Shown here: one piece after another, positions 2,816 through 45,962 of the stretch
Position numbering within the stretch: the first letter of the stretch is position 1
How the letters are laid out: each line of letters starts with the position of its first letter
Assembly (NCBI GenBank): GCA_016792935.1
Contig: JAEUJS010000711.1
Location: forward strand, 1 to 50,605
DNA length: 50,605 bases
Reading direction: 5' to 3'
From: Archangium sp.
Lineage (GTDB): Bacteria; Myxococcota; Myxococcia; Myxococcales; Myxococcaceae
Made by a program: the position numbers and the translations under genes
Notes under the pieces: model-generated
Told to the model about the DNA's origin: nothing
Database searches by the model: none
Seen by the model: the letters and a program-made list of their open reading frames with translations, nothing else

Positions 2816-4126
2816 ATGACAGGGGTTTCCACCATCGCCGCCATCGCCACCGGGCCCGCAGCCGGAGGCATCGGCATCATCCGCATCTCCGGACCTGAGG
2901 CGCTGCAGACTGCGCGACGCGTGGTCATCGGGCTGCCAGAGAGGCCGTCTCCGCGTCACGCGTACCTCGCGCGCTTCACCGACGGAAACGAGACGGTGCT
3001 CGACGAAGGCCTGGCGCTGTTCTTCCCGGGCCCCAGGAGCTTCACCGGAGATGACGTGGTCGAGCTCCACGCGCACGGTGCTCCGCGGCTGCTCTCGATG
3101 CTGCTGGACGTGATTCTCCGAGCGGAAACCGTGCGTCTGGCGACGCCTGGAGAGTTCACGCGCCGCGCGTATCTCGCCGGCCGCATCGACCTGACGCATG
3201 CGGAAGCGTTGGCAGATCTCATCTCCGCCGAATCGGAAGCGCAGGTCCGCGCAGCTGCGGCACAGCTCACGGGAGAGTTCGGAGAGCGGTTGTCGAAGGT
3301 GAAGGCGCCGCTCCTCGCGCTGCAGGCCGACATCGAAGGCGCGATGGATTTTCCGGAAGAAGCTGAAGGCGCGGAGAAAGACGCCGCCGGACGCTTGAGC
3401 GAAATCGTGAAGAACGCGCGTTCGCTTTTGGACGACTCGAAGCGCGGCGCGTTGATTCGCCGGGGCGCGCGCGTGGTCCTGTTCGGTCCGGTGAACGCCG
3501 GCAAATCGACGCTCTTCAACGCGCTCCTCGGAGCAAATCGCGCATTGGTCGACGAAGAGCCCGGCACGACGCGCGACACGCTCGAGGGAAAGCTCGAGCT
3601 CAACGGGCTCGCCGTCACGCTCGTGGACACCGCGGGTTTGCGCGACGAGCCAGGTCGCATCGAGAAGCTCGGCATCGAGCGCACGAAGGAAGCGGTGGCG
3701 TCGGCCGACCTCACGCTCGAGCTCGTGCCTCCCGGAGCGAAGCCGACGCGCGACGACACGCTCGTCGTGCACACGAAGATCGACACCGTGACTCCCTCTC
3801 CCTCAGGGAGAGGGCCTGGGGTGAGGGAGCTCTCACTTTCCGCGAAGACGGGCGAAGGCCTCGAAGCGCTGCGTGACGAACTCTTCAAGCGCCTCGGTGG
3901 AACGCTGGCGGGTGCGGTGGTGAGCAGCAGCGAACGTCACGTGCGCGCGTTGAGCGACATCGTCGAAGCGCTCGAGCGCGCGAGCAGCGCAGCCAGCGTC
4001 TCGACGCTCGAAGTCGTCGCAGGAGAAATCGGCGTCGCGCTCGACGCCATCGCCGAACTCGACGGCAGCGACGCACGCACCGAGTTGCTCGACGCGATCT
4101 TTCAGCGCTTCTGCATCGGCAAGTAG
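2816..4126 (+). CDS. mnmE: tRNA modification GTPase MnmE (TrmE)
   Basis: 436 residues, slightly shorter than the usual 450 or so. MnmE acts with MnmG to add the carboxymethylaminomethyl group to wobble uridine 34 of certain tRNAs, using a methylene-tetrahydrofolate carbon. Residues 1–120 form the folate-binding domain, including the TPGEFTRRAYLAGRIDL segment. The G domain has the P-loop GPVNAGKS with Lys230, the switch TTRDT, DTAGLRD, G4 TKID (320–323) and G5 SAK (342–344). The protein ends in CIGK, the conserved C-terminal motif that holds the modification cysteine. A REP-like element is read through in frame between G4 and G5. The gene stands alone, not beside the usual yidC or mnmG. Confidence 0.97.
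   Translation: MTGVSTIAAIATGPAAGGIGIIRISGPEALQTARRVVIGLPERPSPRHAYLARFTDGNETVLDEGLALFFPGPRSFTGDDVVELHAHGAPRLLSMLLDVILRAETVRLATPGEFTRRAYLAGRIDLTHAEALADLISAESEAQVRAAAAQLTGEFGERLSKVKAPLLALQADIEGAMDFPEEAEGAEKDAAGRLSEIVKNARSLLDDSKRGALIRRGARVVLFGPVNAGKSTLFNALLGANRALVDEEPGTTRDTLEGKLELNGLAVTLVDTAGLRDEPGRIEKLGIERTKEAVASADLTLELVPPGAKPTRDDTLVVHTKIDTVTPSPSGRGPGVRELSLSAKTGEGLEALRDELFKRLGGTLAGAVVSSSERHVRALSDIVEALERASSAASVSTLEVVAGEIGVALDAIAELDGSDARTELLDAIFQRFCIGK
3793..3829 (+). repeat. REP-like palindromic element inside mnmE
   Basis: The stem is CCCTCTCCCT and AGGGAGAGGG around one base (3794–3814), followed by the tail CTGGGGTGAGGGAG. The same stem plus GGGGTGAGGGAG tail recurs at other loci here. In mnmE it is read in frame as PSPSGRGPGVRE, at residues about 326–338. 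Confidence 0.85.
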
Positions 4127-5763: not shown

Positions 5764-6471
5764 TCAGAACGCGCGCTTCGCGAACCAGTCGAGCGATTCC
5801 CAGGTCCGCACCTTGAGCTCGGTGGTGCCGATGCGCGGATTGGAGAGCTCAGCGTCGCTCGCTTGCGCGCTCGCACAGGTGTCGAGCTCGACGTGCGGGG
5901 TGGCGTTGGTGAAGGTGATGTCCACGCACGAGGTGTCATCGCTGGCGACCTGCACCGCGACGCGAACTCCGTTGGCATTCACCGTCACCTCGTCGAGCGA
6001 ACCGACGCGGCACACGCGCGCCGAGAGTTTCGCGCCTTGCACGACCTCTTGCGGAAGGTGCAGCGCGACACGGCTCGGTGACTTCCCCTCGGGGCACGTG
6101 CCGTCTTTCGTCACGCGAAACGCGAGCACGTCATTGAGCACGCTCGCGCCTTCGCGTTGTGCACCGGCCCAGGCGGAGACGCTGCACAGCAACGCCCCGG
6201 CGATGGCGAGTCCGCGCGCGACGCGACCGAGTTTCCCTTTCTTGCCGCCGAAGGGATTGAGGCGGCCGCGAATCGCCATCAACACCAGCGTGAGCGCGGC
6301 GACGAGCGGAATCAGCGCGCCCTGCAGCGGGCCCTGACCGACGAGTCCTCCGAGCAGCGTGTTGAGGAGTCGCGAAGCGCCTTCACTCGAGGCGACGAGC
6401 AGTGACGCGACGAGCGCGAAGCGCTTCCAATCGCCCTCCGGCTCGAGCTCCTTCGGAGTCCCCTCACTCAC
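5764..6471 (-). CDS. Membrane protein of unknown function
   Basis: 235 residues, family not recognised. A short hydrophilic N-terminus is followed by three hydrophobic segments (about 17–35, 45–66 and 85–103, the last ending in an ALLCSVSAWAGA signal-like stretch). A positively charged loop (RGRLNPFGGKKGKLGR) lies between the second and third. The C-terminal 130 residues are extracytoplasmic-looking, with four cysteines that could form disulphides. It is the last gene of the leftward MoxR/DUF58/transglutaminase run, 21 bases after the repeat protein, and the terminator follows at once. Confidence 0.75.
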   Translation of the reverse strand: MSEGTPKELEPEGDWKRFALVASLLVASSEGASRLLNTLLGGLVGQGPLQGALIPLVAALTLVLMAIRGRLNPFGGKKGKLGRVARGLAIAGALLCSVSAWAGAQREGASVLNDVLAFRVTKDGTCPEGKSPSRVALHLPQEVVQGAKLSARVCRVGSLDEVTVNANGVRVAVQVASDDTSCVDITFTNATPHVELDTCASAQASDAELSNPRIGTTELKVRTWESLDWFAKRAF

Positions 6472-6492: not shown

Positions 6493-8178
6493 TCACTCGC
6501 CGTCCACATCTCCCTCTCCCGCGGGGGGAGCGGAGTGAGGACGAGAATCATCCCCCTCTCCCTCGGGGGGAGCGGAGTGAGGACGAGAATCATCCCCCTC
6601 TCCCTCGGGGGGAGGGTCGGGGTGAGGGAGCGCATCCTCAGCTGCCTCAGCTTCTTCGCGAGCGAGTCGCTTCTGTTCCTCAAGCTCGACCGCAGCCGCC
6701 TGCGTCTCCGGAGTCAGCGACTCGAATTCGCTCATCAACGACTCGGTCGACATGCCGCCGCTCGGTGGAGCGACGCGACGCGGAGCCGCGGTCGTCGCAG
6801 GCATCAGCCATGCGGGCGCGATCGATCTCGCGTCGACAGGCGCAGTGGTAGGAGCCAGAGGCGCAGCGGACCCGAGCGGAGATCCAGTCGACGATGATGA
6901 AGCGAAAACAGAAGCATCGGACGAAGGCGCAGACGACGCGGATGTCTGCGCGTCTTTCGCGCGTTCGGCTTCTTCGCGCGCGGCCTGCTTCTTCGCCTCG
7001 AGTTCGACCGCTTCCGCCTGCGTCTCCGGCGTCAGCGACTCGAACTCGCTCATCAACGACTCGGTCGAGATGTCACCACTCGACGGTGCAACCACGCGCG
7101 GTGGTGCCGCCGTCGTCGGCGGAAGCAGCCACGGCGGCGCGATCGACTTCACGTCGACAGAGGGTCTCACCGGTGCCGGTGCCGCTTCGAAGGAAGACTC
7201 CTCCGCGTTCTCTTTGCGTGCTGCTCGTGAGCGTTCGGCTTCTTCGCGCTCGAGCTGCTTCTGCGCCTCGAGCTCGACTGCGAGCGACTGCGTCTCTGGA
7301 GTCAGCGCGTCGAACTCGCTCATCAGCGATTCGGTCGACGACACTTCTCGCGCGACGGGCTCGGGTGACGTGTCAGGCATCACGGGCTCGAACTGGCTCA
7401 TTAGCGACTCGGTCGACATCGCTGGATTCGGCGGTGGCGCAACAACACGAGGAGCCGCGACCGTTGGCGGCATGAGCCACGGTGGAGCGATCGACTTCGC
7501 ATCCACTGCAGCAATGACTGGCTCTCCCTCACCCTGACCCTCTCCCGCAGGGGCGGGAGAGGGAATCGTCTCGCTCGCAACAACGGGCTCGAGCGTCACT
7601 GGCTCGAACTCGCTCATCAGTGACTCGGTCGACATCGTGGGAGTCGGCGCTGGCACTGGCGGTCGCGGCGCTGCGGTCGTCGCAGGCATCAGCCACGGCG
7701 GGGCGATCGACTTCGCGTCCACCGCAGCAGCGATTGTCTCTCCCTCACCCTGACCCTCTCCCGCAGGGGCGGGAGAGGGAATCACCTCGCGCGCCGCGGC
7801 GAGCTCGACCGCCTTCGCCTGCGTCTCCGCGTCGAGCGACTCGAACTCCTGCATCAACGACTGGGTCGACATGCCGCCTTCCGGAATGAACTCCGGCTGC
7901 GGTTCCATCGGCTCATCGACCACGTGCTTCAAGTCATCGAGCGACGCATCGAAGTTCGTCGTGGTGATGACTTGCTCCCGTTTCTCCGGAGCAGGTGGCG
8001 GATCGAGCGGCACCCGCGCACGCGGAGGCGCCTCGAAGCCATCGCCACGCGCAGGCGGCTTCCGCTGCGGAGGCTTCGTGACGCGCGGCTCGTCGTCGGA
8101 CTTCTTCGGCTTCGGCGACGAGAGGTCGTCACCGAGCACCCAGAGCACGAGGTCACGCAGCTTGTGGAACGGATTCAC
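6493..8178 (-). CDS. Novel repeat protein with STESLMSEFE and SIAPPWL modules
   Basis: About 561 residues from the GTG at 8178, which overlaps the stop of the upstream gene as GTGA. A longer upstream extension in this frame is only a shadow of that gene. The N-terminus (NPFHKLRDLVLWVLGDD) looks like an amphipathic membrane-associating helix; there is no signal peptide. The rest is low-complexity and repetitive: six copies of an S-T-[EQ]-S-L-M-x-[EQ]-F-[ED] motif, alternating with four V-D-[AV]-[KR]-S-I-A-P-x-W-L-[ML]-P modules and Glu/Ala-rich helices (TPETQAxAVELE). Two in-frame REP-derived peptides (PSPAPAGEGQGEGE) and a REP-derived C-terminal tail are built in. The short repeated motifs suggest multivalent docking to a partner. 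Function unknown. Confidence 0.7.
   Translation of the reverse strand: MNPFHKLRDLVLWVLGDDLSSPKPKKSDDEPRVTKPPQRKPPARGDGFEAPPRARVPLDPPPAPEKREQVITTTNFDASLDDLKHVVDEPMEPQPEFIPEGGMSTQSLMQEFESLDAETQAKAVELAAAREVIPSPAPAGEGQGEGETIAAAVDAKSIAPPWLMPATTAAPRPPVPAPTPTMSTESLMSEFEPVTLEPVVASETIPSPAPAGEGQGEGEPVIAAVDAKSIAPPWLMPPTVAAPRVVAPPPNPAMSTESLMSQFEPVMPDTSPEPVAREVSSTESLMSEFDALTPETQSLAVELEAQKQLEREEAERSRAARKENAEESSFEAAPAPVRPSVDVKSIAPPWLLPPTTAAPPRVVAPSSGDISTESLMSEFESLTPETQAEAVELEAKKQAAREEAERAKDAQTSASSAPSSDASVFASSSSTGSPLGSAAPLAPTTAPVDARSIAPAWLMPATTAAPRRVAPPSGGMSTESLMSEFESLTPETQAAAVELEEQKRLAREEAEAAEDALPHPDPPPEGEGDDSRPHSAPPEGEGDDSRPHSAPPAGEGDVDGE
6511..6630 (+). repeat. 42-bp tandem array of REP-like units encoding a protein C-terminus
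   Basis: Three units begin with CCCTCTCCC at 6512, 6554 and 6596, a period of exactly 42 bases, or 14 codons. The third unit carries the full GGGGTGAGGGAG tail. On the minus strand they are read as repeats of DDSRPHSAPPEGEG at the C-terminus of the repeat protein. Confidence 0.88.
7524..7564 (-). repeat. REP-like element inside the repeat-protein gene (copy 1)
   Basis: A 41-base element starting CTCCCTCACCCTGACCC and ending GGGCGGGAGAGGGA. It matches the copy at 7740–7780 exactly as far as I can read and is translated in the sense frame as PSPAPAGEGQGEGE. Confidence 0.88.
7740..7780 (-). repeat. REP-like element inside the repeat-protein gene (copy 2)
   Basis: Same 41 bases as the element at 7524, offset by exactly 216 bases (72 codons). 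This implies a segmental in-frame duplication that carried the REP together with its flanking SIAPPWL module. Confidence 0.88.
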
Positions 8179-10028
8179 AAACCACCATCGAGCACTCCGG
8201 CATCGGGCACGCCTGCATCGACCACGACCTTCTTCTTCTTGTCGCGTTCCGCTTGCGTCTCGACGACGAGCTTGCCGGCCTTCTCGTACTTCCACTCGCC
8301 GACCTTCTCGCCCTTCACGTAGCGGCCTTCCGACATCACGCCGCCGTCGGGCAGCCAGCTCGTCCACGGTCCAGTCGGCACTCCGTTTTCATACGCGCCT
8401 TCGAAGCGCGGCTGTCCCGTGCGCCACGAGCCCTTCCACGGGCCCGACTCGATGCCGCCGTCGAACGTGCCTTCCATCATCACCGCGCCGTTGTCGTGGA
8501 AGTACTTCCAGCCGCCGTTCGGTTTTCCGTCGGAGATCGTGCCCTGCTTCTCGATGCCGCCAGTCGGATGCCAGAACGTCCACAACCCAATCGCGACCAT
8601 GTCGATGGAGTCGTCTTCGCGCGCACGACAGACCAGACAGCCGAGCGTGCGCTTCTCACCGTCGGCGCTCCACACACCGTGCATGCGCGTGCATTCCTGC
8701 GCCGCGTCGGCCTGGTCCTGACCATCGACGTACTCGACGTCTCGCCACGCTTCGCCGGTGGACCAGAACGTCTTCCACGGACCTTGATTCGTCTGCCCGA
8801 CGCGCAGGCCGCTTTCGCTCGCCTTGCCGGTCGCGTGGTACTCGGTCCACACGCCGTTGGGGATGTCGCCTTCCATCGGGCCTTCGCTCTTCAGCTGCTT
8901 TCCCCAGCGCCAGAATTTCCACTGACCCGAGCGGTCGCCGTCTTCGTAGTGACCGACCCAGTCCGGGTCTCCGTTGCTGTAGTACGCCTTCCACTCTCCG
9001 ACGGCGCGGCCCTCGCGGTACTGCCCGACGAGCCGTCGCTGACCGTTGGTGTGGAACCACACGTACGGACCTTCGCGCCGGCAATTCGCGTAATTCTCTT
9101 CGACGGTGATGCGCCCTTCTTCCGTCGACGTGCGCCACGCCCCGACAGGACAGCCATTCTCGAACGCGCCCTGCTCGGCCATGCGCCCGTTGGGGTGAAA
9201 CGTCTGCCACGAGCCCGTGCCTTCACGAATCGTCGACACGCCGAACACCGTTCCATCGACGCCGCGGAATTCGTGTCGGCCCGTCGGCACTCCGTCTTCG
9301 TAGAGCCCTTTGCGCAGTCGCTCGCCGGTCGGGTGGAACTCTTCGTACATGCCGTTGAGGCGGCCCTTCACGTACATGCCGCGCCAGCGAAGCTTCCCGT
9401 TGCCGTCGTAGCCAAACCACTGGCCCTCATCGCGGTTCTTCACCACGCAGCCTTCCTTGCGCTGCTTGAACTCGACGACCCACTCGCCGCCCCTGGTGTC
9501 GCACGCATCGGGGCCTTCACCGACGCGACGCCCGCCCTTGAACAACACCTCGCGCCACTTCTCTCCGCGCGGCAGGTACTCGGTGAACGTGCCCTCGGCG
9601 AAGCCCTTCACGAACGGACCCTCGAGGTGCTTCAGCCCCGTGTCGCGGTGGTAGTGAATCCACACGCCGCTCTCGCGACCGTCGACGTACGAGCCTTCGC
9701 GTTCCTTCTTTCCTTCTTCGTTCCAGAACACCCACGGACCTTCGCGGCGGCCGTCCTTCCACTCACCGCGCTCCATGATTTGGCAGTGCTCGAAGTAGCG
9801 CACCGACGGGCCGTGGCGTTTTCCGTTCTTCCACAGGGTGCGCTCGAGCACCTGCCCGCCGGGCAACGTGCGCACCCACTCGCCCTCGTTGTTGGTCCTC
9901 ACGCGGCAGCCCGCTTGTCCGTTCGGGAGCTCGGTCCACTTTCCGCCGGGCATGGCCGCGCACACGCTCTTCGCGTCTTCGGCGAACGCCGCGCTGCTGA
10001 TCAATGAGAGGAGAACGAGCGCGCGCAT
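8175..10028 (-). CDS. Secreted YwqK/MORN-repeat protein
   Basis: 617 residues from the ATG at 10028, which overlaps the previous stop as ATGA; the signal peptide MRALVLLSLISSAAFA confirms this start. The mature protein is a long series of about 24-residue repeats of the form G-x-W-x-x-[WY]-x-x-[ND]-G-x-x-x-x-x-G-x-[YF], as in the YwqK/MORN beta-hairpin family (COG2849). Three Cys-bearing modules of similar layout head three blocks of repeats: near the N-terminus (VCAAMPGGKW then GCRV), in the middle (ACDTRGGEW then GCVV, coded near 9450–9510) and later (ECTRMHGVW then GCLVC, near 8640–8700). The name antitoxin often given to YwqK-like proteins is not supported here. Likely a periplasmic or surface scaffold. 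Confidence 0.85.
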   Translation of the reverse strand: MRALVLLSLISSAAFAEDAKSVCAAMPGGKWTELPNGQAGCRVRTNNEGEWVRTLPGGQVLERTLWKNGKRHGPSVRYFEHCQIMERGEWKDGRREGPWVFWNEEGKKEREGSYVDGRESGVWIHYHRDTGLKHLEGPFVKGFAEGTFTEYLPRGEKWREVLFKGGRRVGEGPDACDTRGGEWVVEFKQRKEGCVVKNRDEGQWFGYDGNGKLRWRGMYVKGRLNGMYEEFHPTGERLRKGLYEDGVPTGRHEFRGVDGTVFGVSTIREGTGSWQTFHPNGRMAEQGAFENGCPVGAWRTSTEEGRITVEENYANCRREGPYVWFHTNGQRRLVGQYREGRAVGEWKAYYSNGDPDWVGHYEDGDRSGQWKFWRWGKQLKSEGPMEGDIPNGVWTEYHATGKASESGLRVGQTNQGPWKTFWSTGEAWRDVEYVDGQDQADAAQECTRMHGVWSADGEKRTLGCLVCRAREDDSIDMVAIGLWTFWHPTGGIEKQGTISDGKPNGGWKYFHDNGAVMMEGTFDGGIESGPWKGSWRTGQPRFEGAYENGVPTGPWTSWLPDGGVMSEGRYVKGEKVGEWKYEKAGKLVVETQAERDKKKKVVVDAGVPDAGVLDGGL

Positions 10029-13465: not shown

Positions 13466-15682
13466 TCAGTTGGGAGGCGGCCAGAGACCGCGGTCGGAGT
13501 TCTTCTTCAAGCGCGCATCGAGGTCAGCGATTCCCTCGAGCTCAGGACACTTCGTTCGACAGTCAGGATGCAGCCACGCGGTGATGCGGCCCACGTCTGG
13601 CAGCTGCCGCTCGACACCGATGCGCAACGTCGCGGCCTCGATGTTCTTGCGGCACACCACACATTTCGACGCGCCCGTCTTCGCGCGCGCGACGAAGGGA
13701 AAGTCGCCCGCCTGCTCGAGCTTCTCGAGCTTGGGCAGCTCCGCCTTCGGAGCCGGACCCAGGTCGACGCCGCGCCGCTTCGCGAGTGCCGCCGCGACGA
13801 CGTGCGTGCCCGCGGGCGTGACGCGATTCCGGTAGAACGTGACGGCCTTGGTGATGAACGTGGTGTCGAGCTCATTGGTGAGGTCGACCTGCTCGAGCTT
13901 CGGCGCGAACTTCGAATCACTCTCGAGCTTCTTCGCCAGCGCGCGCGCGTCGGCGTCGCTGAAGCCGTTGTACGGGACGCGCAGCACCTTCAAAGCGGGG
14001 AACGCGTGGAGCAACAGCTCGAGCCCCTCGATGCCCACCGGTTTGTTGGTCATCGCGGTGCGGCCGAGGTTCTGACCAGCGAGCTCGAGGAACTCGAGCG
14101 AATCGCTCCACGACTTCACGCCAGCCAACATGCGCGCGAGTTCGAGGCCTTCACCTTCCCCGGGGCGGTGGAAGCCGATGCGCAGCCGCTTCAACTTCGG
14201 CAGGTGCTTGCTGTCGAGCAGCTGCCGCAGATGCTCGATGGAACGGAAGTAGTGGTCGGCCGTGGTGTCGAGTTCAGTGAAGCGCGCGAAGGCAGGCGAG
14301 AGCGAGAGTTCACGAGCTGACGCGGGCGTCACCGGACCATCCGCTCCCGCATCGAAGATGAAGCCGCGCAACATCGGCAACTGCGCGAACACCGTGTCGG
14401 CGCCCTTCACGAAGGTCTGCGCGTGCGCGGAGACGTGCGTGACGAAGCCGCGTTCCCATTTCTGGCCGGTGATGAAGTGGTCCACGTCGGCGAGCCAGCG
14501 CTTCTCGTGCTTCTTGAGCAGCGCGGCTTCCTCCGCCACCAGCGCCTCGGTCTTCGCGCGCGCGAGCTGACACTGCACGCGAATCAGCTCACCGCGCGCG
14601 TCGCCCTGCTCGATGAGCCAATCGGCGTACACGAGGCGCGGCGCATCGTCGTCGGGGCGAGCGCGAATGTCGGCAATCCAGTCGTGCTTCGTCGCCACCG
14701 CGCGCGGCGCGTTCGGAGCGTCCGCGGCGAAGCGCTTCCACGCCTCGGCGAACGTGTCTCCGAGCGGCTTGAGGTGCAGCAAGCGACCCAGCGGAGCAGC
14801 GAGCTTCTTCTTGCGTGACTCCGCGCCGTAGAGCGCGAGCTTCCACCGCTCGATGGCCGGGTGCGGCGACGAGAAGGCGTCCCACGCTCCGGGCAACACG
14901 AACTTTCGCCCCGCGCGTGGCTGCTTCTTCTCGACGAGGTGTCCCGACTTCACGAGCACCGCGACCGCTTGCTTCAACTCGGCCGGCTGCCAGCCATAGC
15001 GGCGGAGGTCTGCTTCGGAGCTGTCGACCAACGCGAGCACTTGCAGCAACAACACCGCGGGCGCTTCATCGAGCCGCAGCGTGTTCTGCACTTCCTTCAC
15101 CACCGCCGGCGCGCTCCGGCGGGGATCGACATCCCATTTCCCCGAGCGCGCGAGCAGCGCCTGAAATCCACTCGAGGAATAGGTGTCCCACACCGGAAAC
15201 AACGACGACCAGGGATAGATGTCGCTCGAGTACGAGTACTCGACGGCCTCGCGCAGGAACGCGCGCTGCTTGTCGTTCGTCACCCTCGCTGGGCGAAAGA
15301 AGACCTGCCCCAGCCTGACGAACCACGCTCCAGCGTCGTCGCCACCCTTCTGATTCGAGAACCCTCCGAACAGAATCAGCGCGGGGTTGCGCAAGCGCTC
15401 GTCCATCTTTCGCTGCAGTCGCGTGATGAGCGCACGCGACGTCGCGTCTTCCGGCAGATGCGCCGAGAGAAACGCCAACGCCTGCACCCCTGCTCGGAAG
15501 CAACCGTCGTCGAACGCCTTCGTCGCGCTGCGAGGCCAGGTGTTGCGCGAGGGGGAAAAGTCACCGTCGACGTCGAAGAGGCTCTCTTTGCCGGCGAGAC
15601 AGTCGAAGAGCGGCCTGGCGTTCCACTTGCCGAAGATGCTCCGCAGGTCTCCCTGCAGCTCGGTGGAAAAGCCGGCGCTCAT
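13466..15682 (-). CDS. TIGR02996/leucine-rich-repeat protein with C-terminal PARP-type zinc finger pattern
   Basis: 738 residues from the ATG at 15682, which overlaps the transglutaminase stop as ATGA. Residues 1–320 match nothing I know; about 220–290 could be a winged-helix-like segment. At about 330–365 is the TIGR02996 repeat-companion motif (DDAPRLVYADWLIEQGD...RGELIRVQ). About 430–640 is a series of LRR-like strands (LPKLKRLRIGF, LEFLELAGQNLG, LKVLRVPYNGF, KLEQVDL). At 672–705 is CVVC, 27 residues, then HPDC, i.e. CX2CX27HX2C with W before the His, close to the CX2CX28–30HX2C PARP finger. It has no signal peptide, so a cytoplasmic DNA- or protein-sensing role is possible. Confidence 0.78.
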   Translation of the reverse strand: MSAGFSTELQGDLRSIFGKWNARPLFDCLAGKESLFDVDGDFSPSRNTWPRSATKAFDDGCFRAGVQALAFLSAHLPEDATSRALITRLQRKMDERLRNPALILFGGFSNQKGGDDAGAWFVRLGQVFFRPARVTNDKQRAFLREAVEYSYSSDIYPWSSLFPVWDTYSSSGFQALLARSGKWDVDPRRSAPAVVKEVQNTLRLDEAPAVLLLQVLALVDSSEADLRRYGWQPAELKQAVAVLVKSGHLVEKKQPRAGRKFVLPGAWDAFSSPHPAIERWKLALYGAESRKKKLAAPLGRLLHLKPLGDTFAEAWKRFAADAPNAPRAVATKHDWIADIRARPDDDAPRLVYADWLIEQGDARGELIRVQCQLARAKTEALVAEEAALLKKHEKRWLADVDHFITGQKWERGFVTHVSAHAQTFVKGADTVFAQLPMLRGFIFDAGADGPVTPASARELSLSPAFARFTELDTTADHYFRSIEHLRQLLDSKHLPKLKRLRIGFHRPGEGEGLELARMLAGVKSWSDSLEFLELAGQNLGRTAMTNKPVGIEGLELLLHAFPALKVLRVPYNGFSDADARALAKKLESDSKFAPKLEQVDLTNELDTTFITKAVTFYRNRVTPAGTHVVAAALAKRRGVDLGPAPKAELPKLEKLEQAGDFPFVARAKTGASKCVVCRKNIEAATLRIGVERQLPDVGRITAWLHPDCRTKCPELEGIADLDARLKKNSDRGLWPPPN

Positions 15683-17754
15683 CGCGTGAACCACCAACCG
15701 ATGGGGTTGAAGAAGCCGCCGAGCCGAATCCACAGCGGAGTCGACTTGCTCATCTCACTGCGGGCCTGACGCGCGAGCGGCACCATCGAGTCCTTGACGC
15801 TCGTGTCGTCGTGACCGAGCGCGAGCCGCAGGTGTGCATTGGTGAGCGCGACGAAACTCGGAGCACGCTGCGCGAGACGTTCTGCGTGACGCTCGCGACT
15901 CTCCCCCGGCAACCGCGGCACGCCGAGGTCGGAGAAGTAGTCGAGCACCGCGCGGTACACGTAGCGATGGTTCGCTCCCGCCAGACGGCGGAAGGCCTTC
16001 ACGCCGAACGCGACGACGATGGCGCTCACCAACGCGCCGAGCACCGAGAAGCCGATGAGCTCCCACGGAATGACGAGCGGCGTCTTGTCGTCGAGCCCGC
16101 CCGGAGGTTCTCCGCGCGCCAATTCTCCGAGCGCTGCTTCGAGGTCCTGGTCGACATGCGCCGCCGGCGGCTCATCGCTCTGCTCCGGCACGATGTCGAA
16201 GGTCACCCAGCCGACGCCCTCGAGGTACATCTCGGGCCACGCGTGCGCTTCGTTCGCGAAGATGAGCACCGCGGAACCAGCGCCGCGCGAGGCCGTGCTC
16301 ACGCCGTAGCCAATGGCGACGCGCGCCGGAATTCCCTGCGAACGCAGCAGGAAGACAGCCGCGTGCGCGAAGTGAACGCAGTAGCCGCGCATCTCTCCGA
16401 AGAGGAACGTGGCGACCGGGTCGTCGCCGTTCAGGTTCTTCTCGGCGAGTGAATAGAAGCCCTTCTTCTCGAGGTACTGCTTGATGGCGAGCGCCTTCAC
16501 CACGTCGTCGCCGACGAAGCGCGGGTCCACGTCGCGGACAATCTCATCGCTCAAGTCGCGGTAGCGCGGGTCTGACGGGAATTCTGTGTAGTGATTGAGC
16601 CGCTCGGGGCTCCAGTCTTCGGGCACCGCGGAGCGACCCAACATGCGCTCCACCGGCCGCAGCAAGAAGAGCGAGTTCACGTCGTACGCCGCGACGAAGC
16701 GACGCGGATTGGGATTCGGAAGCGGAGCGAACTGCTGCGGGAATCCGACTCCGAACAACTGCGCGTGGTCGGCGAGCAGATACATCGACGTGCGCAGCTG
16801 GCGATGGAACGCGGGCGCTTGCGGCGTGGTGACGTCGACCGGACTCCCCGCGGGGAATTTGGTCGGCACGTCGGTGTCGAACGTGCCCGCTGCATCCTCG
16901 ATGAGGCGGTCGCCCACCAACTTCGAGCGGACGGCCTGGCGGAAATAGAGCGCGTCGGCTTCCGGCAAATCGTCGTGCAGCACGGCGACCGCGATGGGCT
17001 CGGGCGGCTTTCCTCCACCTCCACCGTTGTTGTTCTTGTTGTTCTTGTCCTTGTCGTCCTTGTTCTTGTCGTTCTCGTCGCCGCGAACGCCGAGTTCGTC
17101 TTCCTTGCTGACCTCGACGCGCGGAGGCTGCGAGAAGAGGAGCACCAGAATTCCGCCGATGAAGAGCAGCATCATCGCGGCGAGCCGACGCGCGCGTGAC
17201 GCACGGAGCAGCAGCAGCGCAGAAATCGCCGTCGCCGTGACGCCGAGCACCGCGAGCACGGGCTCGGGTTCGATGCCGTGGCTCCACGCCCAGTCGCTCA
17301 AGAAGCGCGGCTGGTGAATGCGCATGTGGCGGTGGTCGCGGAACGCGTGCGCGACCGCGCCGATGACCACGGCGAGCTCGAGAACCGAGACCGCGTGCCA
17401 GCGCGACGAAGCGAGCCGCAGCGCGACGAAGAAGCCGAACGTGGTGAGCCCGAGCACCAGCGCGTCGGCCGCGACGAGCGTGAACCACGGAGGGAGGAAG
17501 CTGCCCCACGCCGACAACAGCGCCGCGAGGATTTGTCCGACGATGGCGAGCGTGACGCCGGTGAGAATCCAGCTCCCCATGCGCAGCTTCGCGTCTTCGA
17601 GCTTGAACGCGAGCCACGACGCGCTGAGCACGCCGATGACCGCGGCCATCAACCCCGGAGGCGTGGCGAGCGACCAGAAGTAGACCGTCACCGCTCCCGA
17701 GAGCAGCAGCGCCTTCAGAATCGACATCGTGCGCGAGTCTCTCTGGCCGTTCAC
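15679..17754 (-). CDS. TgpA-like transglutaminase-core membrane protein
   Basis: 691 residues from the GTG at 17754, which overlaps the DUF58 stop as GTGA; an ATG nine codons in is a possible alternative. Five to seven membrane segments fill about residues 10–215 (DUF3488/TgpA-type N-terminus). A Lys/Asn/Asp-rich spacer ending in a Gly run (about 225–250) leads to the periplasmic transglutaminase core. The catalytic triad is visible: Cys459 in RGYCVHFA, His504 in EAHAWPEM, Asp520 in FDIVPE. A final membrane segment lies at about 560–585, followed by a DUF4129-like cytoplasmic tail. Such proteins are regularly paired with MoxR and DUF58. The substrate is unknown; envelope peptides or proteins are likely. 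Confidence 0.92.
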   Translation of the reverse strand: MNGQRDSRTMSILKALLLSGAVTVYFWSLATPPGLMAAVIGVLSASWLAFKLEDAKLRMGSWILTGVTLAIVGQILAALLSAWGSFLPPWFTLVAADALVLGLTTFGFFVALRLASSRWHAVSVLELAVVIGAVAHAFRDHRHMRIHQPRFLSDWAWSHGIEPEPVLAVLGVTATAISALLLLRASRARRLAAMMLLFIGGILVLLFSQPPRVEVSKEDELGVRGDENDKNKDDKDKNNKNNNGGGGGKPPEPIAVAVLHDDLPEADALYFRQAVRSKLVGDRLIEDAAGTFDTDVPTKFPAGSPVDVTTPQAPAFHRQLRTSMYLLADHAQLFGVGFPQQFAPLPNPNPRRFVAAYDVNSLFLLRPVERMLGRSAVPEDWSPERLNHYTEFPSDPRYRDLSDEIVRDVDPRFVGDDVVKALAIKQYLEKKGFYSLAEKNLNGDDPVATFLFGEMRGYCVHFAHAAVFLLRSQGIPARVAIGYGVSTASRGAGSAVLIFANEAHAWPEMYLEGVGWVTFDIVPEQSDEPPAAHVDQDLEAALGELARGEPPGGLDDKTPLVIPWELIGFSVLGALVSAIVVAFGVKAFRRLAGANHRYVYRAVLDYFSDLGVPRLPGESRERHAERLAQRAPSFVALTNAHLRLALGHDDTSVKDSMVPLARQARSEMSKSTPLWIRLGGFFNPIGWWFTR

Positions 17755-19116: not shown

Positions 19117-20754
19117 TCAACGTCGGCACAACGACACGCCCAGGTCGCGAGGGTCGCGCTCGCGCACCTTGCACTGGTAGCCCGGCCCATCCATCGAGCC
19201 GCCTCCGGCGAGTCGCGCGATGTCCCACTGTTCCAGCAGCGCGCACAACCGCTGCGCATGAGCGCGAGCTTCCGCGACGGTGACGAACCCACGCGAGCAC
19301 GTCTTGCCCGCAACGCGGTCAGCGTCGACGAGGCGCGGCGGCGGACGGACGTGCTTCTCGACGGTCTTGTTCGAGCCCGCGTCGACGACCTCGGCTTGCG
19401 CCAGCGCACTCGGGCCAGCGTCGACGACGTCCGTGCTCGGCGCTCCCGCATCGATGCGTTCGATTCGCGCCAGCGCACTCGCGCCGGCGTCAAGGACATC
19501 GGCGCTCGGCGCACCGGCGTCGACTGCGAGCGCGACCGTGCCCGCGTCGATGGCTGGCGGCGTGAACACCACCGGCGGGGGAGTCGGCGCTGCAGGCTGA
19601 GCGCGGAGCGTGCGCTGAACGACCAGCGCGCCGGCGAGCGCGACGAGCAGACCCAACACCAGCCACGGAGTGCCTGACGAAGCGGGCGCGGCGACCGGGG
19701 TTGGCGCAACGGCCGGTGTCGGCGCCAGTGGAGCCGCTTCGCGCGCCGCGTCAGTCGCGCGCGGCGCTGCGGGAGGCAGAGGCGTCCGCTGCAACGTCGC
19801 CTCGAGCCCGAACGACGCAGCGGTCGCTTGCACCGTGCGGCTCGCCACCACGTCGACGCGTTCTGCGATTCGAGCCAACAGCGCATCCAGCTCGCTCAGG
19901 CACGCGCGCGCCTCGGGAAAGCGCTCGCCGGGCTCGCGCGCGAGGCAGCGAGCGAACCACGCATCGAAGCCGTCCGGCACGCCGCGCAGCCCGAGCGACG
20001 CCGCGCGCTGGCTCGCCGGCTCGAGCGGAGACACGAGAATCTCCGTGAGCACCGCGCCGATGGACGCGTCGTGTTCCTTCGCGGTGCGCCAGTACGAGCC
20101 TCCGGTGAGGAACTGAAACGCCATCAACCCCAGCGCCCACACGTCAGTCGCGGGAGTCAGCAGGGCGCCGGGCTTCGCTTGCTCCGGCGCCATCCAGAAC
20201 GGAGAGCCGACCGCGCTCGTCACCACGCCCGCTCCACCCGACGGCAACGCCAGCGCGAGCCCGAAGTCGAGCACCTTCACCACCGACGCCGCGCCCTCGC
20301 GTCTCGCACGCGCGAGGAAGAGGTTCTCGGGTTTGAGATCGCGATGAACGATGCCCTGGTCGTGCGCCAGCCCGAGCGCGTGTCCGGCCTGCAGGAACAC
20401 GTCTCGTACCTCTCCGGGTGGAATCGCGCCGCGCCGCGCGCTCAAGCTGCCGAGATCCTCGCCCTCGAGCAACTCCATCGCGAGCCACGGCGCGCCGGAC
20501 GCCTCGTCGATGCCGGCGGCGACGACTTCCACCACGTGCTCGCTGTCGATGCGCCCGCCGATGCGCGCCTCGTCGACGAAACGCTGCCGACTCCGCGGAT
20601 CCGGAACGAGCTGCGGATGCATCAACTTGAGCGCGCGCAGCTTGTCGGTCGAGAGCTGTCGCGCGACGTACACCGCGCCCATGCCGCCCTGAGAGAGCCG
20701 ACGCTCGATCTGAAAGTCCTTCGCAAACAACTGCCCCGGCTCGAGCGCGCTCAT
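19117..20754 (-). CDS. Membrane Ser/Thr protein kinase (Pkn type)
   Basis: 545 residues. The kinase domain (about 14–285) is complete: glycine loop LSQGGMGAVYVA, Lys43 in RALKLMHP, catalytic HRDLKPEN with Asp139, DFG with Asp163, and APEQ in the P+1 region. A Pro/Ala-rich juxtamembrane stretch is followed by one membrane segment (about 361–382). The extracytoplasmic part holds a repeated Asp-Ala-Gly pattern (DAGAPSADVLDAGASALARI and its copies) and a Cys-containing tail with CSRGFVTVAEARAHAQRLC. The outside part may sense or bind an envelope component. It lies 21 bases after the TonB-like gene and just ahead of the DUF58 unit, whose products it may control. Confidence 0.93.
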   Translation of the reverse strand: MSALEPGQLFAKDFQIERRLSQGGMGAVYVARQLSTDKLRALKLMHPQLVPDPRSRQRFVDEARIGGRIDSEHVVEVVAAGIDEASGAPWLAMELLEGEDLGSLSARRGAIPPGEVRDVFLQAGHALGLAHDQGIVHRDLKPENLFLARARREGAASVVKVLDFGLALALPSGGAGVVTSAVGSPFWMAPEQAKPGALLTPATDVWALGLMAFQFLTGGSYWRTAKEHDASIGAVLTEILVSPLEPASQRAASLGLRGVPDGFDAWFARCLAREPGERFPEARACLSELDALLARIAERVDVVASRTVQATAASFGLEATLQRTPLPPAAPRATDAAREAAPLAPTPAVAPTPVAAPASSGTPWLVLGLLVALAGALVVQRTLRAQPAAPTPPPVVFTPPAIDAGTVALAVDAGAPSADVLDAGASALARIERIDAGAPSTDVVDAGPSALAQAEVVDAGSNKTVEKHVRPPPRLVDADRVAGKTCSRGFVTVAEARAHAQRLCALLEQWDIARLAGGGSMDGPGYQCKVRERDPRDLGVSLCRR

Positions 20755-20775: not shown

Positions 20776-22218
20776 TCAGTCTGCTTCGAGCAGCGTCACC
20801 TTGCAGTCGTAGGTCGGGTTGGTGAAGTCGACCACGTCGATGTCGCCAGTCATTTCGTCGAAGCGTCCGACGAGCGACGGCACACGCGGCCCGAGCGGTC
20901 GCGGAGGCTCACCGGGCATCGGTGGCGTCTCATTTCCAATCATGGAGAGCGCGCTGATGACCGACATGGCGACCATGCCGATGGCGGCTCGGCCGTTGAG
21001 TTCCTTCACGTTGAGCTTGCGGCGGAACTTCATGATGCCGTCGAAGCGCCACACGCTGCGGAGCGGCTTCTTGCTGAGTCCTCCGTCGAACGTGAAGTTC
21101 ACGGCGACCTCGTTGGCTTTGTCGACCACCCACACGTCGAAGGGCTTCAGCCCGCTGGGGCGAATCATGCGCACCGATTCCACTGCGCCGGAGTGCAGCT
21201 GTTTCACCTCGACGAGCGCGTAGAGCTCGAGGCCCGCGCGGCCGTCGGCGAATTCCTGCATGCGCGCTCCGGCGGCGAGGAAGTTGACCATGTTGATGGC
21301 GTCGGGACTTCCGCGCGCGGCGGCGTCGGCGAGCGCGCTCGGTTTCTCGATGCTCTCGAGTCGCCCCTCGGGCTCGGCGTAGGGAGCGCCGGTTTTTCCG
21401 TAGCGCTCGGCTCCGGCGAGCCAGCTTTCGGCGAAGGCCTTGCCGACTTCTTTGGGGGAATTGGTGTCGATGAACTGCGGGACCTCATCGGTCGCATCAC
21501 GAAGTGCTGCGCCGAGCGCTCCGTACGCCGGGTCGGGCAGTCCGTTCGTCGCGCGCGCTCGAGCGAGCATGCTGCGAGCGAAGCCACCGACTCGTTCTTC
21601 GACGCGCGCCTGTTCGTCGGCGCGGACCTCTTCTTTGCTCGGCATGTCGCTCGGGGTGAGCGTGCGGCCGCGCGGCGCTTCACGAACGATGGGCATCGCG
21701 AGCACTGTCTGCGCGTCAGACGTGCTGAGGAATGACTCCCTCTCCCGCCCCTGCGGGAGAGGGTTGGGGTGAGGGAGTGACGAAGCAGTGCTCACGCCCG
21801 AAGTCGGAGCATCGCTCTTCGTTTTCGGAGGGCTGGCTGACTCGCTCGGCGGAGCGACGGTCGACACGCCCGCACCCCGACCGCGCTCGGTGGGCAGTGC
21901 GGCAGACGATGGCTGTGCGCTCGACGTTGGCTGCGCGTTCGGTGTCGACTCTTTCGGTTTTGGCTGCTCGAACGGCGTTGGCCGTGCGATCGGCGGCTGC
22001 ACGAGCGTCGGCGCCGGCGGGCTCGGTTTTGGCAGCGTCGGCGAAGTCGCGGGCACGACGTTGACCCAACGCACTTCGACGAGCTGCAGCGGAGCAGTGC
22101 GTGGAACCGGCGGTGGACGCTCAGACCCGCGCGCAAACAACCAGAAGACACACACGTGCACGCCCAGCGAGACGCCGAACGCGAGCATCGTCCTGCGCCG
22201 TCCCCACGGCCTGCGCAC
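20776..22218 (-). CDS. TonB-like periplasmic-spanning protein
   Basis: 480 residues. A GTG start at 22218 gives a basic N-terminus (RRPWGRRR) and then one membrane segment (MLAFGVSLGVHVCVFWLF), the layout of TonB. An ATG at 22188 is an alternative start. A long Pro/Ser/Lys-rich spacer (about 35–170) is followed by a C-terminal region with KQLHSGAVESVRMIRPSGLK, which resembles a TonB C-terminal domain, and FDVWVVDKANEVAVNF. No ExbB/ExbD partner is adjacent. A REP-like element is read in frame inside the spacer as LPHPNPLPQGRERES. It starts 6 bases after the glycosylase stop. Confidence 0.75.
   Translation of the reverse strand: MRRPWGRRRTMLAFGVSLGVHVCVFWLFARGSERPPPVPRTAPLQLVEVRWVNVVPATSPTLPKPSPPAPTLVQPPIARPTPFEQPKPKESTPNAQPTSSAQPSSAALPTERGRGAGVSTVAPPSESASPPKTKSDAPTSGVSTASSLPHPNPLPQGRERESFLSTSDAQTVLAMPIVREAPRGRTLTPSDMPSKEEVRADEQARVEERVGGFARSMLARARATNGLPDPAYGALGAALRDATDEVPQFIDTNSPKEVGKAFAESWLAGAERYGKTGAPYAEPEGRLESIEKPSALADAAARGSPDAINMVNFLAAGARMQEFADGRAGLELYALVEVKQLHSGAVESVRMIRPSGLKPFDVWVVDKANEVAVNFTFDGGLSKKPLRSVWRFDGIMKFRRKLNVKELNGRAAIGMVAMSVISALSMIGNETPPMPGEPPRPLGPRVPSLVGRFDEMTGDIDVVDFTNPTYDCKVTLLEAD
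21736..21777 (+). repeat. REP-like element inside the TonB-like gene
   Basis: The stem is CCCTCTCCCGC and GCGGGAGAGGG around CCCT, with the tail TTGGGGTGAGGGAG. It is read antisense, in frame, as LPHPNPLPQGRERES in the proline-rich spacer, where an insertion would be tolerated. Confidence 0.88.
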
Positions 22219-44564: not shown

Positions 44565-45962
44565 TCACGCTTCCGAGATGCGCACGCCGCGAGCAGTGAC
44601 CATCAGTTTCACTTTCCATGCGCGAGGTGGTGCTCGACGCGCACAGTGGAGCAGGCCTTCCCACGCTTCGGTGCTGATCAACTCTCTCGCGCGCAGATGA
44701 CGCTTCAGCGCCGTCGCTGCGTGGAGTGCCTCCGTGAGATCCACCGCGAAGGTCGCTTCGGATTTCGTGCGTGCGGTCGAGCGCGCCCAGATCTCGAGCG
44801 ACACGAGCGCGTCGGCTCCGGGGAGCGTGCGCGCTTTCATCGCAGCCCAGGTGAGGAAGGCGTCGGCCAACGGACGCGGTGTCTTGAAGTGATTCTCGAA
44901 CGCCTCGCTGGTGATGAACGCTTTGAGCGACTCGAGGGTCGGCGTGACCGCGAGGCGAGCGAGCGGAACTTCGGCGTCGAGTTGATCAGCCAGCACCGCG
45001 AGCCGGTAGCGCAGCTCTTCGTTGTCTTCTTCGTGCAGTGCCCGGAAGTGTTCCCAGAGAGAAGGTTGGTTCTCCCTCACCCCAACCCCTCTCTCCGAGG
45101 GAGAGGGAAATTCGCGTTCAACTTCGGAGCGCGCGATGACCGGTCGGAGGCGCTTCAACGTTCGCAGCGCGACTGACTCAGGGTGACCGTCTCCCTCGTA
45201 CGTCACCGCGCACAACTGCGTGCAGCGTTTGCGCACTTCGTCGAACGTCGTCCACACCTCGTCGCGAATCGGCTGCGTGTGGTCGTCCGCGTAGAACTTT
45301 CCGTTGATGACGCCGCCCGCGAGATGAAGCTGCGCGACCGAAGTCCACGGCAGCGCGTCGAGCCCCTCGAGCAACGACAACCCACGCGCGAGTTGATGCG
45401 ACACGAGATGCCCGACATCGAGCAGCAACGGACAACCCGTCGCCTCGTGCAGCTTCGTCATGAACTCCGCGATGTGCATCGAGCCGCGCGCAGTCATCAC
45501 CACCGGGTTCTCGATGAGGAGCGGAACGGTGAGCGCGTTGCGAACATGCAGCACGTGCTCGACCGCGCGCTCGAGCCCCTCACCGTCGAGCGTGGGCGAT
45601 ACATATAAATAGCCGGGGAACGGAACGCCGCCGTGGTGCCACCAACCCACGTCGTTCGACACCCATGGACTTCCGACGGCGCGCGCGTGGGCATCGAGCA
45701 GTTTCAGTCGCTCGTCCGACTCCAGCTCCGGGCCCCAGAGGTTGAGATGCACCGGGTGGTACAGCAGCGGAGTCGCCGAGCGACGTGACTCCATCGTCGA
45801 GAAGAGCGTCGCTTCCTTGCGCGCGTCGTCGACGTTCAACGGCGCGGAGTACTCGAGGTAATCGAACAGCGTCGGGTCGGCGTCCAACAGCGCCCAGGGC
45901 CGCGGCGAGTCGCTCGACTGCGCGTTCGACGACAGACCAAGACCGAGCGTTGGGAGTCGCAT
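44565..45962 (-). CDS. DUF692-type MNIO (multinuclear iron oxygenase) with C-terminal extension
   Basis: 465 residues. Residues 1–285 form the DUF692 TIM barrel, with candidate iron ligands His69 and His72 (YHPVHLN), Glu151 and Asn152 (IENP), Asp182 and His185 (LLLDVGHLVSH) and His213 (QLHLAG). Enzymes of this class modify Cys or Asp residues of ribosomal peptides, as in methanobactin and bufferin pathways. The usual DVNN segment is DVGH here. Residues 286–297 are a REP-derived insert (PSPSERGVGVRE), and about 298–465 is an all-helical extension I do not recognise; it may serve as a built-in partner domain. It is divergent from a DoxX gene with 30 bases between starts. No precursor peptide is visible nearby. 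Confidence 0.88.
   Translation of the reverse strand: MRLPTLGLGLSSNAQSSDSPRPWALLDADPTLFDYLEYSAPLNVDDARKEATLFSTMESRRSATPLLYHPVHLNLWGPELESDERLKLLDAHARAVGSPWVSNDVGWWHHGGVPFPGYLYVSPTLDGEGLERAVEHVLHVRNALTVPLLIENPVVMTARGSMHIAEFMTKLHEATGCPLLLDVGHLVSHQLARGLSLLEGLDALPWTSVAQLHLAGGVINGKFYADDHTQPIRDEVWTTFDEVRKRCTQLCAVTYEGDGHPESVALRTLKRLRPVIARSEVEREFPSPSERGVGVRENQPSLWEHFRALHEEDNEELRYRLAVLADQLDAEVPLARLAVTPTLESLKAFITSEAFENHFKTPRPLADAFLTWAAMKARTLPGADALVSLEIWARSTARTKSEATFAVDLTEALHAATALKRHLRARELISTEAWEGLLHCARRAPPRAWKVKLMVTARGVRISEA
45072..45108 (-). repeat. REP-like element inside the MNIO gene
   Basis: It reads CTCCCTCACCCCAACCCC, then the stem CTCTCTCCGAGGGAGAGGGA. It is in the sense orientation relative to the gene and is read in the same frame as the mnmE copy, giving PSPSERGVGVRE against PSPSGRGPGVRE. 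Confidence 0.87.

Follow-up and report, generated by a model that had tools for sequence, protein, structure and literature searches.

Genomic context of the repeat-protein gene

The window, a stretch of 50,605 nucleotides taken from a draft Archangium sp. assembly (740 contigs, 81% complete), carries a gene cluster encoding DUF58, transglutaminase, MoxR, TPR and then YwqK proteins, an order that is conserved in relatives. Directly after this cluster lies the gene under study.

8175..10028, minus strand: YwqK-type (MORN_2) gene, which closes the DUF58-transglutaminase-MoxR-TPR-YwqK cluster and is conserved in that position (Pfam MORN_2, 1e-21)
6493..8178, minus strand: repeat-protein gene, 561 amino acids, a single open frame without internal stop; almost certainly a long-form member of the family described below
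8175..8178, minus strand: GTGA overlap, read directly from the sequence, in which the repeat-protein gene starts (GTG) and the YwqK-type gene stops (TGA)

The start codon of the 561-residue protein is GTG, and its N-terminus reads VNPFHKL. GC3 amounts to 0.72 in this gene, lower than the 0.80-0.90 of the adjoining genes and consistent with a gene that is young or relaxed. Translational coupling to the YwqK-type gene had been proposed from the sequence alone; the four-base overlap is present, making co-expression with YwqK likely in this species only, but conserved operon membership was not borne out.

At least two cluster genes were found together in seven genomes (G001-G005, G009, and G018) and two further records (L013 and L014). 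In the nine stretches 3' of YwqK, tblastn detected no relative of the repeat protein, and neither strand contained an STxSLM or SIAPxW motif. The sequence-only reading had implied a role for the protein in the MoxR/DUF58/kinase operon and had itself named absence from related operons as the refuting result; the gene is absent past YwqK in every relative examined. MoxR, DUF58, and the kinase are not favoured as partners. By this gene-order comparison, the repeat-protein gene is a newcomer beside the MoxR/DUF58/YwqK cluster, and as such it is unfit for inferring the function of that cluster.

Other genes at the locus vary as well. A 235-amino-acid protein with hydrophobic stretches is encoded directly downstream of the repeat-protein gene (about 5764-6471); this small membrane protein had no relative in 23 other genomes of the family and is another lineage-specific gene at the same place. 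The gene between MoxR and transglutaminase (13466-15733), whose product has a TIGR02996 domain and a match to zf-PARP that is weak, has no homologue at that cluster position in relatives. In G005, an insertion of ∼5 kb carrying a trypsin-like protease gene (L012, 14912-19880) parts TPR from YwqK.

Composite repeats and REP elements in the tail

Six copies of the motif ST[EQ]SLMx[EQ]F, the number given by the sequence-only reading, were counted in the 561-residue frame, starting at residues 104, 183, 255, 281, 371, and 477. The module VDxxSIAPxWLxP occurs four times (residues 153, 225, 341, and 448).

7834..7869, minus strand: motif 1, STQSLMQEFESL, lying in the PMEPQPEFIPEGGM stretch that is shared with the homologue G160:C224; AF2 helix at residues 105-113
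7681..7722, minus strand: module 1, VDAKSIAPPWLMPA, from the motif count
7597..7632, minus strand: motif 2, STESLMSEFEPV, from the motif count
7465..7506, minus strand: module 2, VDAKSIAPPWLMPP, from the motif count
7381..7416, minus strand: motif 3, STESLMSQFEPV, from the motif count
7303..7338, minus strand: motif 4, STESLMSEFDAL; AF2 helices at residues 282-288 and 294-327
7117..7158, minus strand: module 3, VDVKSIAPPWLLPP, from the motif count
7033..7068, minus strand: motif 5, STESLMSEFESL; AF2 helices at residues 372-380 and 384-414
6796..6837, minus strand: module 4, VDARSIAPAWLMPA, from the motif count
6715..6750, minus strand: motif 6, STESLMSEFESL; AF2 helices at residues 478-486 and 490-515
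7380..7794, minus strand: 216-base segmental duplication (Tandem Repeats Finder, 1.9 copies, 81% match)

The peptide form of the putative STxSLM docking motif, with its L-M-x-x-F positions, is STESLMSEFESLTPET. With four modules for six motifs, the SIAPxWL module does not alternate with every STxSLM motif, as had been supposed. Instead, each module stands before motif 2, 3, 5, or 6, which makes both elements parts of one composite unit rather than two alternating families. The unit is degenerate and 72-106 residues long.

Short palindromic repeats (REPs) are embedded in this tail. The following copies are read in frame.

7743..7779, no strand assigned: REP copy, duplicated along with the 216-base unit (7743-7762 exact)
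7527..7563, no strand assigned: REP copy, read as PSPAPAGEGQGEGE (7527-7546 exact)
6507..6632, no strand assigned: 42-base REP array forming the C-terminus, three copies of 14 amino acids, with the REP in opposite orientation

Both repeat structures reported from the sequence alone were recovered. The 216-base period was found with an exact REP in each copy (82% identity over 148 nt in a separate comparison), and the 42-base array, called by Tandem Repeats Finder at 6507-6614 (2.6 copies, 96% match), provides the C-terminus in frame. Both periods are multiples of three. The REP core has 279 sites in the genome (≤1 mismatch) versus one for a control pattern read backwards, and the window holds five sites against 0.01 expected. 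A high-copy palindrome is thus translated in frame within the gene, as in other REP-decorated open reading frames. The sole matches beyond the repeat-protein gene in the own-genome similarity search (L002-L004) were weak stretches (E 2-5e-4) that overlap only REP-encoded residues, and they were rejected.

An undescribed Myxococcaceae family with a conserved head

Measured against a score above the curated cut-off or an E below 1e-3, the repeat protein had only weak matches, below cut-off, in Pfam, NCBIfam, PHROG, and PDB, and its description as a previously undescribed protein holds for the libraries searched. No match was found in plasmid and phage collections, nor was a described equivalent found in the literature search. 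A search with the N-terminus as a single sequence against 40 relatives likewise returned nothing outside the gene itself; homologues were found with profiles.

A profile of the six modules (A1), run against 195 genomes of the phylum, gave one strong outside match, G160:C224, from another genus of the same family, with three profile matches in a 363-residue frame (best E 7e-16). The remaining matches to this profile, in acyl-CoA dehydrogenase-like, VWA-like, and stop-containing frames, were dismissed as chance. The G160:C224 gene encodes 311 amino acids with three STESL motifs, shares the same GTG-Asn-Pro-Phe start (BLASTP E 1e-25), and sits between ABC1-kinase-like and ferritin-like genes (named by eye), not after YwqK. 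Residues 1-131 are conserved between the two proteins, most strongly in FxASLDDL...DxPMEPxPEFIPEGGMSTxSLMxEFESLDAETQA.

More genomes came within reach with a profile built on the two heads, and a subsequent 12-member head profile identified members in 18 of the 195 genomes, distributed over eight genera, all of them Myxococcaceae. Pfam, NCBIfam, and PDB profiles gave no match for these other family members. In the window, the head comprises three elements.

8122..8178, minus strand: N-terminal helix, NPFHKLRDLVLWVLGDDL; AF2 helix at residues 3-15
8005..8043, minus strand: core motif DGFEAPPRARVPL, in the family DGF[DE]xxxRxxxVDLxGG; D, F, R, V, and L invariant in the 12-member alignment
7930..7953, minus strand: core motif FDASLDDL, in the family FxASLDDL; no variation at F, A, S, L, D, and L across the 12 aligned members

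The N-terminal pattern NPFxxLxxLxxxVLGxDL is retained in G160:C224, and other members read (V/M)N(V/I)(F/L)xSLAR.. at this place. The window protein holds all invariant columns of the head, consisting of the N-terminal helix, DGF[DE]x3R..V[DP]L, and FxASLDDL. It lacks the VDL(S/T)GGVK segment, having RVPLDPPP instead, while G160:C224 keeps VDLRGGVK; as G155 has RGDRA here, the segment appears, from the alignment, to be typical of the family and not defining for it.

When a control profile of 16 members, which left out the window protein and G160:C224, was searched against 1474 ORFs, the short member of the window's own genome scored 1.9e-22, G160:C224 1.4e-14, and the window ORF 0.0066, with the next match at 0.14. 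Given this modest score against the rest of the family, the link of the window protein to the family runs through G160:C224. These two cluster together (support 93/99) in a 19-head tree, where the window branch is long; the grouping of the pair with the long members from the same genus as the window is weak (71/95). From these comparisons, the window protein is almost certainly a diverged long-form member of an undescribed Myxococcaceae family.

Short and long family members

Short members consist of ∼145 amino acids, end just past FxASLDDL, and have no tail. They mostly adjoin a gene for a ∼500-residue protein. Upstream come a ∼260-residue gene and a pair encoding a histidine kinase and a response regulator; downstream there is often an FHA gene. 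The window's own genome carries a short paralogue in such a two-component/FHA locus, on contig C430, where the ∼500-residue and FHA genes are 82% and 70% identical, respectively, to the G002 reference. The window gene is not beside these genes, in contrast to the C430 paralogue and most short members. Long members are mostly found outside this ancestral locus, with that of G004 inside it. The two-component/FHA location is therefore typical of short members and not family-defining.

The ∼500-residue protein has a Pro/Thr-rich N-terminus and ends in EPFxSxxxARxIL. Its gene, without Pfam match, stands directly before a family member in L082 (4549-6036), and relatives of it precede family members in L083, L084, L086, L088, L114, L115, L118, and L120. 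This protein is a candidate partner of the family.

The tails of long members span 100-400 residues, and their middle differs between lineages. That of G156 is built from a 96-nt unit repeated 5.4 times, that of G157 from units of 81-93 nt, and that of G004 contains three copies of a FxASLDDL-like motif; the STESLM tail motif was found in the window and G160:C224. A long member of G002 (L081, 5081-6208) has a tail with three copies of GDGRPSTPLGVNGE (or SGE) and many QPVSVEQ units, which, judging from its sequence, is a parallel tail expansion within the window's genus. The extreme C-terminus, on the other hand, is kept within clades while the middle varies: PEDL[IV]ALAEALL in G155, G156, and G159 (V for A), EEDLVALAEALV in G157, and FSTLEL[IL]DTV[ED]QL in G002 and G005. 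By eye these tips resemble STESLMSEFESL, yet the likeness did not exceed that of shuffled tails (p 0.12-0.92), even though the tips of G005 and G002 are the best-scoring places for this motif (p 0.12 and 0.41, respectively). Common descent of the tips and the STESLMSEFESL tail motif is accordingly a suggestion that does not rise above the shuffled controls.

Constraint and predicted structure

Comparing the window protein with G160:C224 gives a dN/dS of 0.36 for residues 1-131 and of 0.11 for residues 76-131 (FxASLDDL-AAARE). The six STxSLM motifs compared with each other yield 0.17, and the four SIAPPWL modules 0.11, these pairs not being independent of one another. Recurrence of the motifs in the homologue at a dN/dS of 0.11 argues that they are not due to chance, and the ratios support a coding sequence on the minus strand whose motifs are under purifying selection.

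AF2, run on the single sequence, returned a mean pLDDT of 51 and coil nearly throughout. Helices were predicted only at residues 3-15 and 84-87, at motifs 1, 4, 5, and 6, and in the charged segments following these motifs; motifs 2 and 3 received none in this single-sequence prediction. An N-terminal amphipathic helix had been expected. The helix is indeed predicted, but its hydrophobic moment in the window protein is ordinary (0.27, p 0.37 versus shuffles); in eight of 13 family members the moment is significant (p < 0.05).

A probable disordered multivalent tether or adaptor

Our favoured reading, which we consider probable as a whole, is that the window protein is a long-form family member and acts as a disordered multivalent tether or adaptor. 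The family's conserved head is short and comprises the N-terminal helix, DGF..VDL(S/T)GGVK, and FxASLDDL; behind it comes a tail, disordered by prediction, that is rebuilt in each lineage, often from tandem repeats. In the window, this tail carries six copies of one putative helix-forming docking motif, ST[EQ]SLMx[EQ]FE, and the linear motif VDxxSIAPxWLxP stands before four of these. Segmental duplication probably produced the motif copies, and REPs either travelled with it or entered in frame to act as spacers. Through its helix and core motifs, the head would anchor the protein to a membrane surface or to a core partner, and the tail would stay unfolded, each STxSLM segment folding into a short helix whose L-M-x-x-F face might bind the same site on a partner. 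Six such sites could provide high avidity or gather several partner molecules. The multivalent docking scaffold of the sequence-only reading is thus retained in what concerns repeated motifs, constraint, and predicted disorder with helices at four of six motifs, and abandoned in its tie to MoxR, DUF58, or the kinase. Better candidates for the partner than MoxR or DUF58 are products of the ancestral locus: the ∼500-residue protein next to short members, the FHA protein, and the two-component pair.

A wider proposal, which we put forward tentatively, is that the family consists of Myxococcaceae adaptors in which the number and kind of tail motifs, that is valency, is the evolving trait, built independently in each lineage. 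The six STESLM motifs in the window, three FxASLDDL-like motifs in one relative, and PEDLIALAEALL tips on long linkers elsewhere would then be variants of one design, with REPs serving as ready-made in-frame spacers and tails tuning the assembly of a shared complex tied to the two-component/FHA pathway.

The strongest competitor of the tether or adaptor is a functional head followed by a neutral or relaxed tail, in which an unconstrained C-terminus accepts any in-frame, disorder-compatible sequence and slippage, segmental duplication, and REP spread would have left the repeats behind as a side effect. Tails made from unrelated repeats in different genera, short members without any tail, the reduced GC3, and the presence of in-frame REPs in the window tail and of another repeat (GDGRPSTPLGVNGE, three times) in the G002 tail are all consistent with this. 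Neutrality, however, does not account for the strong synonymous excess in the motifs (dN/dS 0.11-0.17), nor for their ∼80% identity between genera while REP-derived spacers are not kept, nor for an extreme C-terminus that is conserved past a variable middle in related genomes. We therefore regard a neutral tail as unlikely.

Alternatively, the tail could be a phospho-acceptor, its STES and LTPET sequences being targets of a Ser/Thr kinase that are read by the FHA protein to yield a graded signal. Such a role is suggested by FHA-domain genes just past the short member in C430, G002, G022, and G023, by the divergent orientation of a G002 long member and a Ser/Thr kinase gene, and by a PknB-like kinase gene in the window (19117-20754). 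Myxobacteria have many kinase genes, which makes kinase adjacency a weak point. Moreover, conservation within the motifs is highest at L, M, and F in addition to S and T, AF2 places these positions in helices, and TPET reads DAET in motif 1 and in G160:C224. A phospho-acceptor tail is improbable. Finally, a docking scaffold dedicated to the MoxR-DUF58-kinase operon and coupled to YwqK, to which the four-base overlap and the position directly after the cluster would point, is very improbable in view of the gene's absence after YwqK, despite a conserved cluster, in seven genomes and two records and the location of its homologue G160:C224 elsewhere.

Comparison with known systems

The family is unnamed in the libraries searched and restricted to Myxococcaceae, and it joins a conserved head to a repeatedly rebuilt tail. 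Its natural series of tails (none, a single tip, three or six motifs) would allow one to measure how motif number affects a scaffold in bacteria.

SSB is a protein composed of a core, a linker, and a conserved tip with a partner-docking peptide. Likewise, FtsZ possesses a conserved core, a disordered C-terminal linker of variable length, and a conserved C-terminal peptide on which partners dock (PMC9939409). The tether or adaptor proposed here would share with both a conserved head and a disordered linker of little sequence similarity, and has a helical motif by prediction. It differs in that no sequence relation was found, its head is not a known folded domain, and the docking peptide is present six times in the window protein. 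PARCEL repeats, which are tandem and amphipathic, occur in ORFs that lack an assigned function; their unit has 25 residues, and many lie in membrane-targeted proteins (PMC2996958); from their description they are set apart from the unit reported here, which comprises 72-106 residues with a conserved motif of 12. As to the YwqK/MORN_2 and MoxR-DUF58-transglutaminase clusters, the repeat-protein gene is a neighbour, likely co-transcribed, and no conserved member.

Rickettsia RPE and other intragenic REPs are palindromic repeats that are inserted in frame and translated (PMC3733652). In the window protein, by contrast, the REPs are spacers within a repeat tail, and STESLM and SIAPPWL are not REP-derived. 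Elsewhere in the window, two ORFs (20776-22218 and 44565-45962) contain in-frame REP-like peptides (SLPHPNPLPQGRERES and FPSPSERGVGVRENQ, respectively). An mnmE-like GTPase gene (2816-4126) carries the REP-like palindrome CCCTCTCCCTCAGGGAGAGGGCCTGGGGTGAGGGAGC in frame at 3794-3830; the encoded peptide, PSPSGRGPGVRE, falls between the motifs TKID and SAK. This suggests that, in this genome, loops of housekeeping proteins have received REP insertions.
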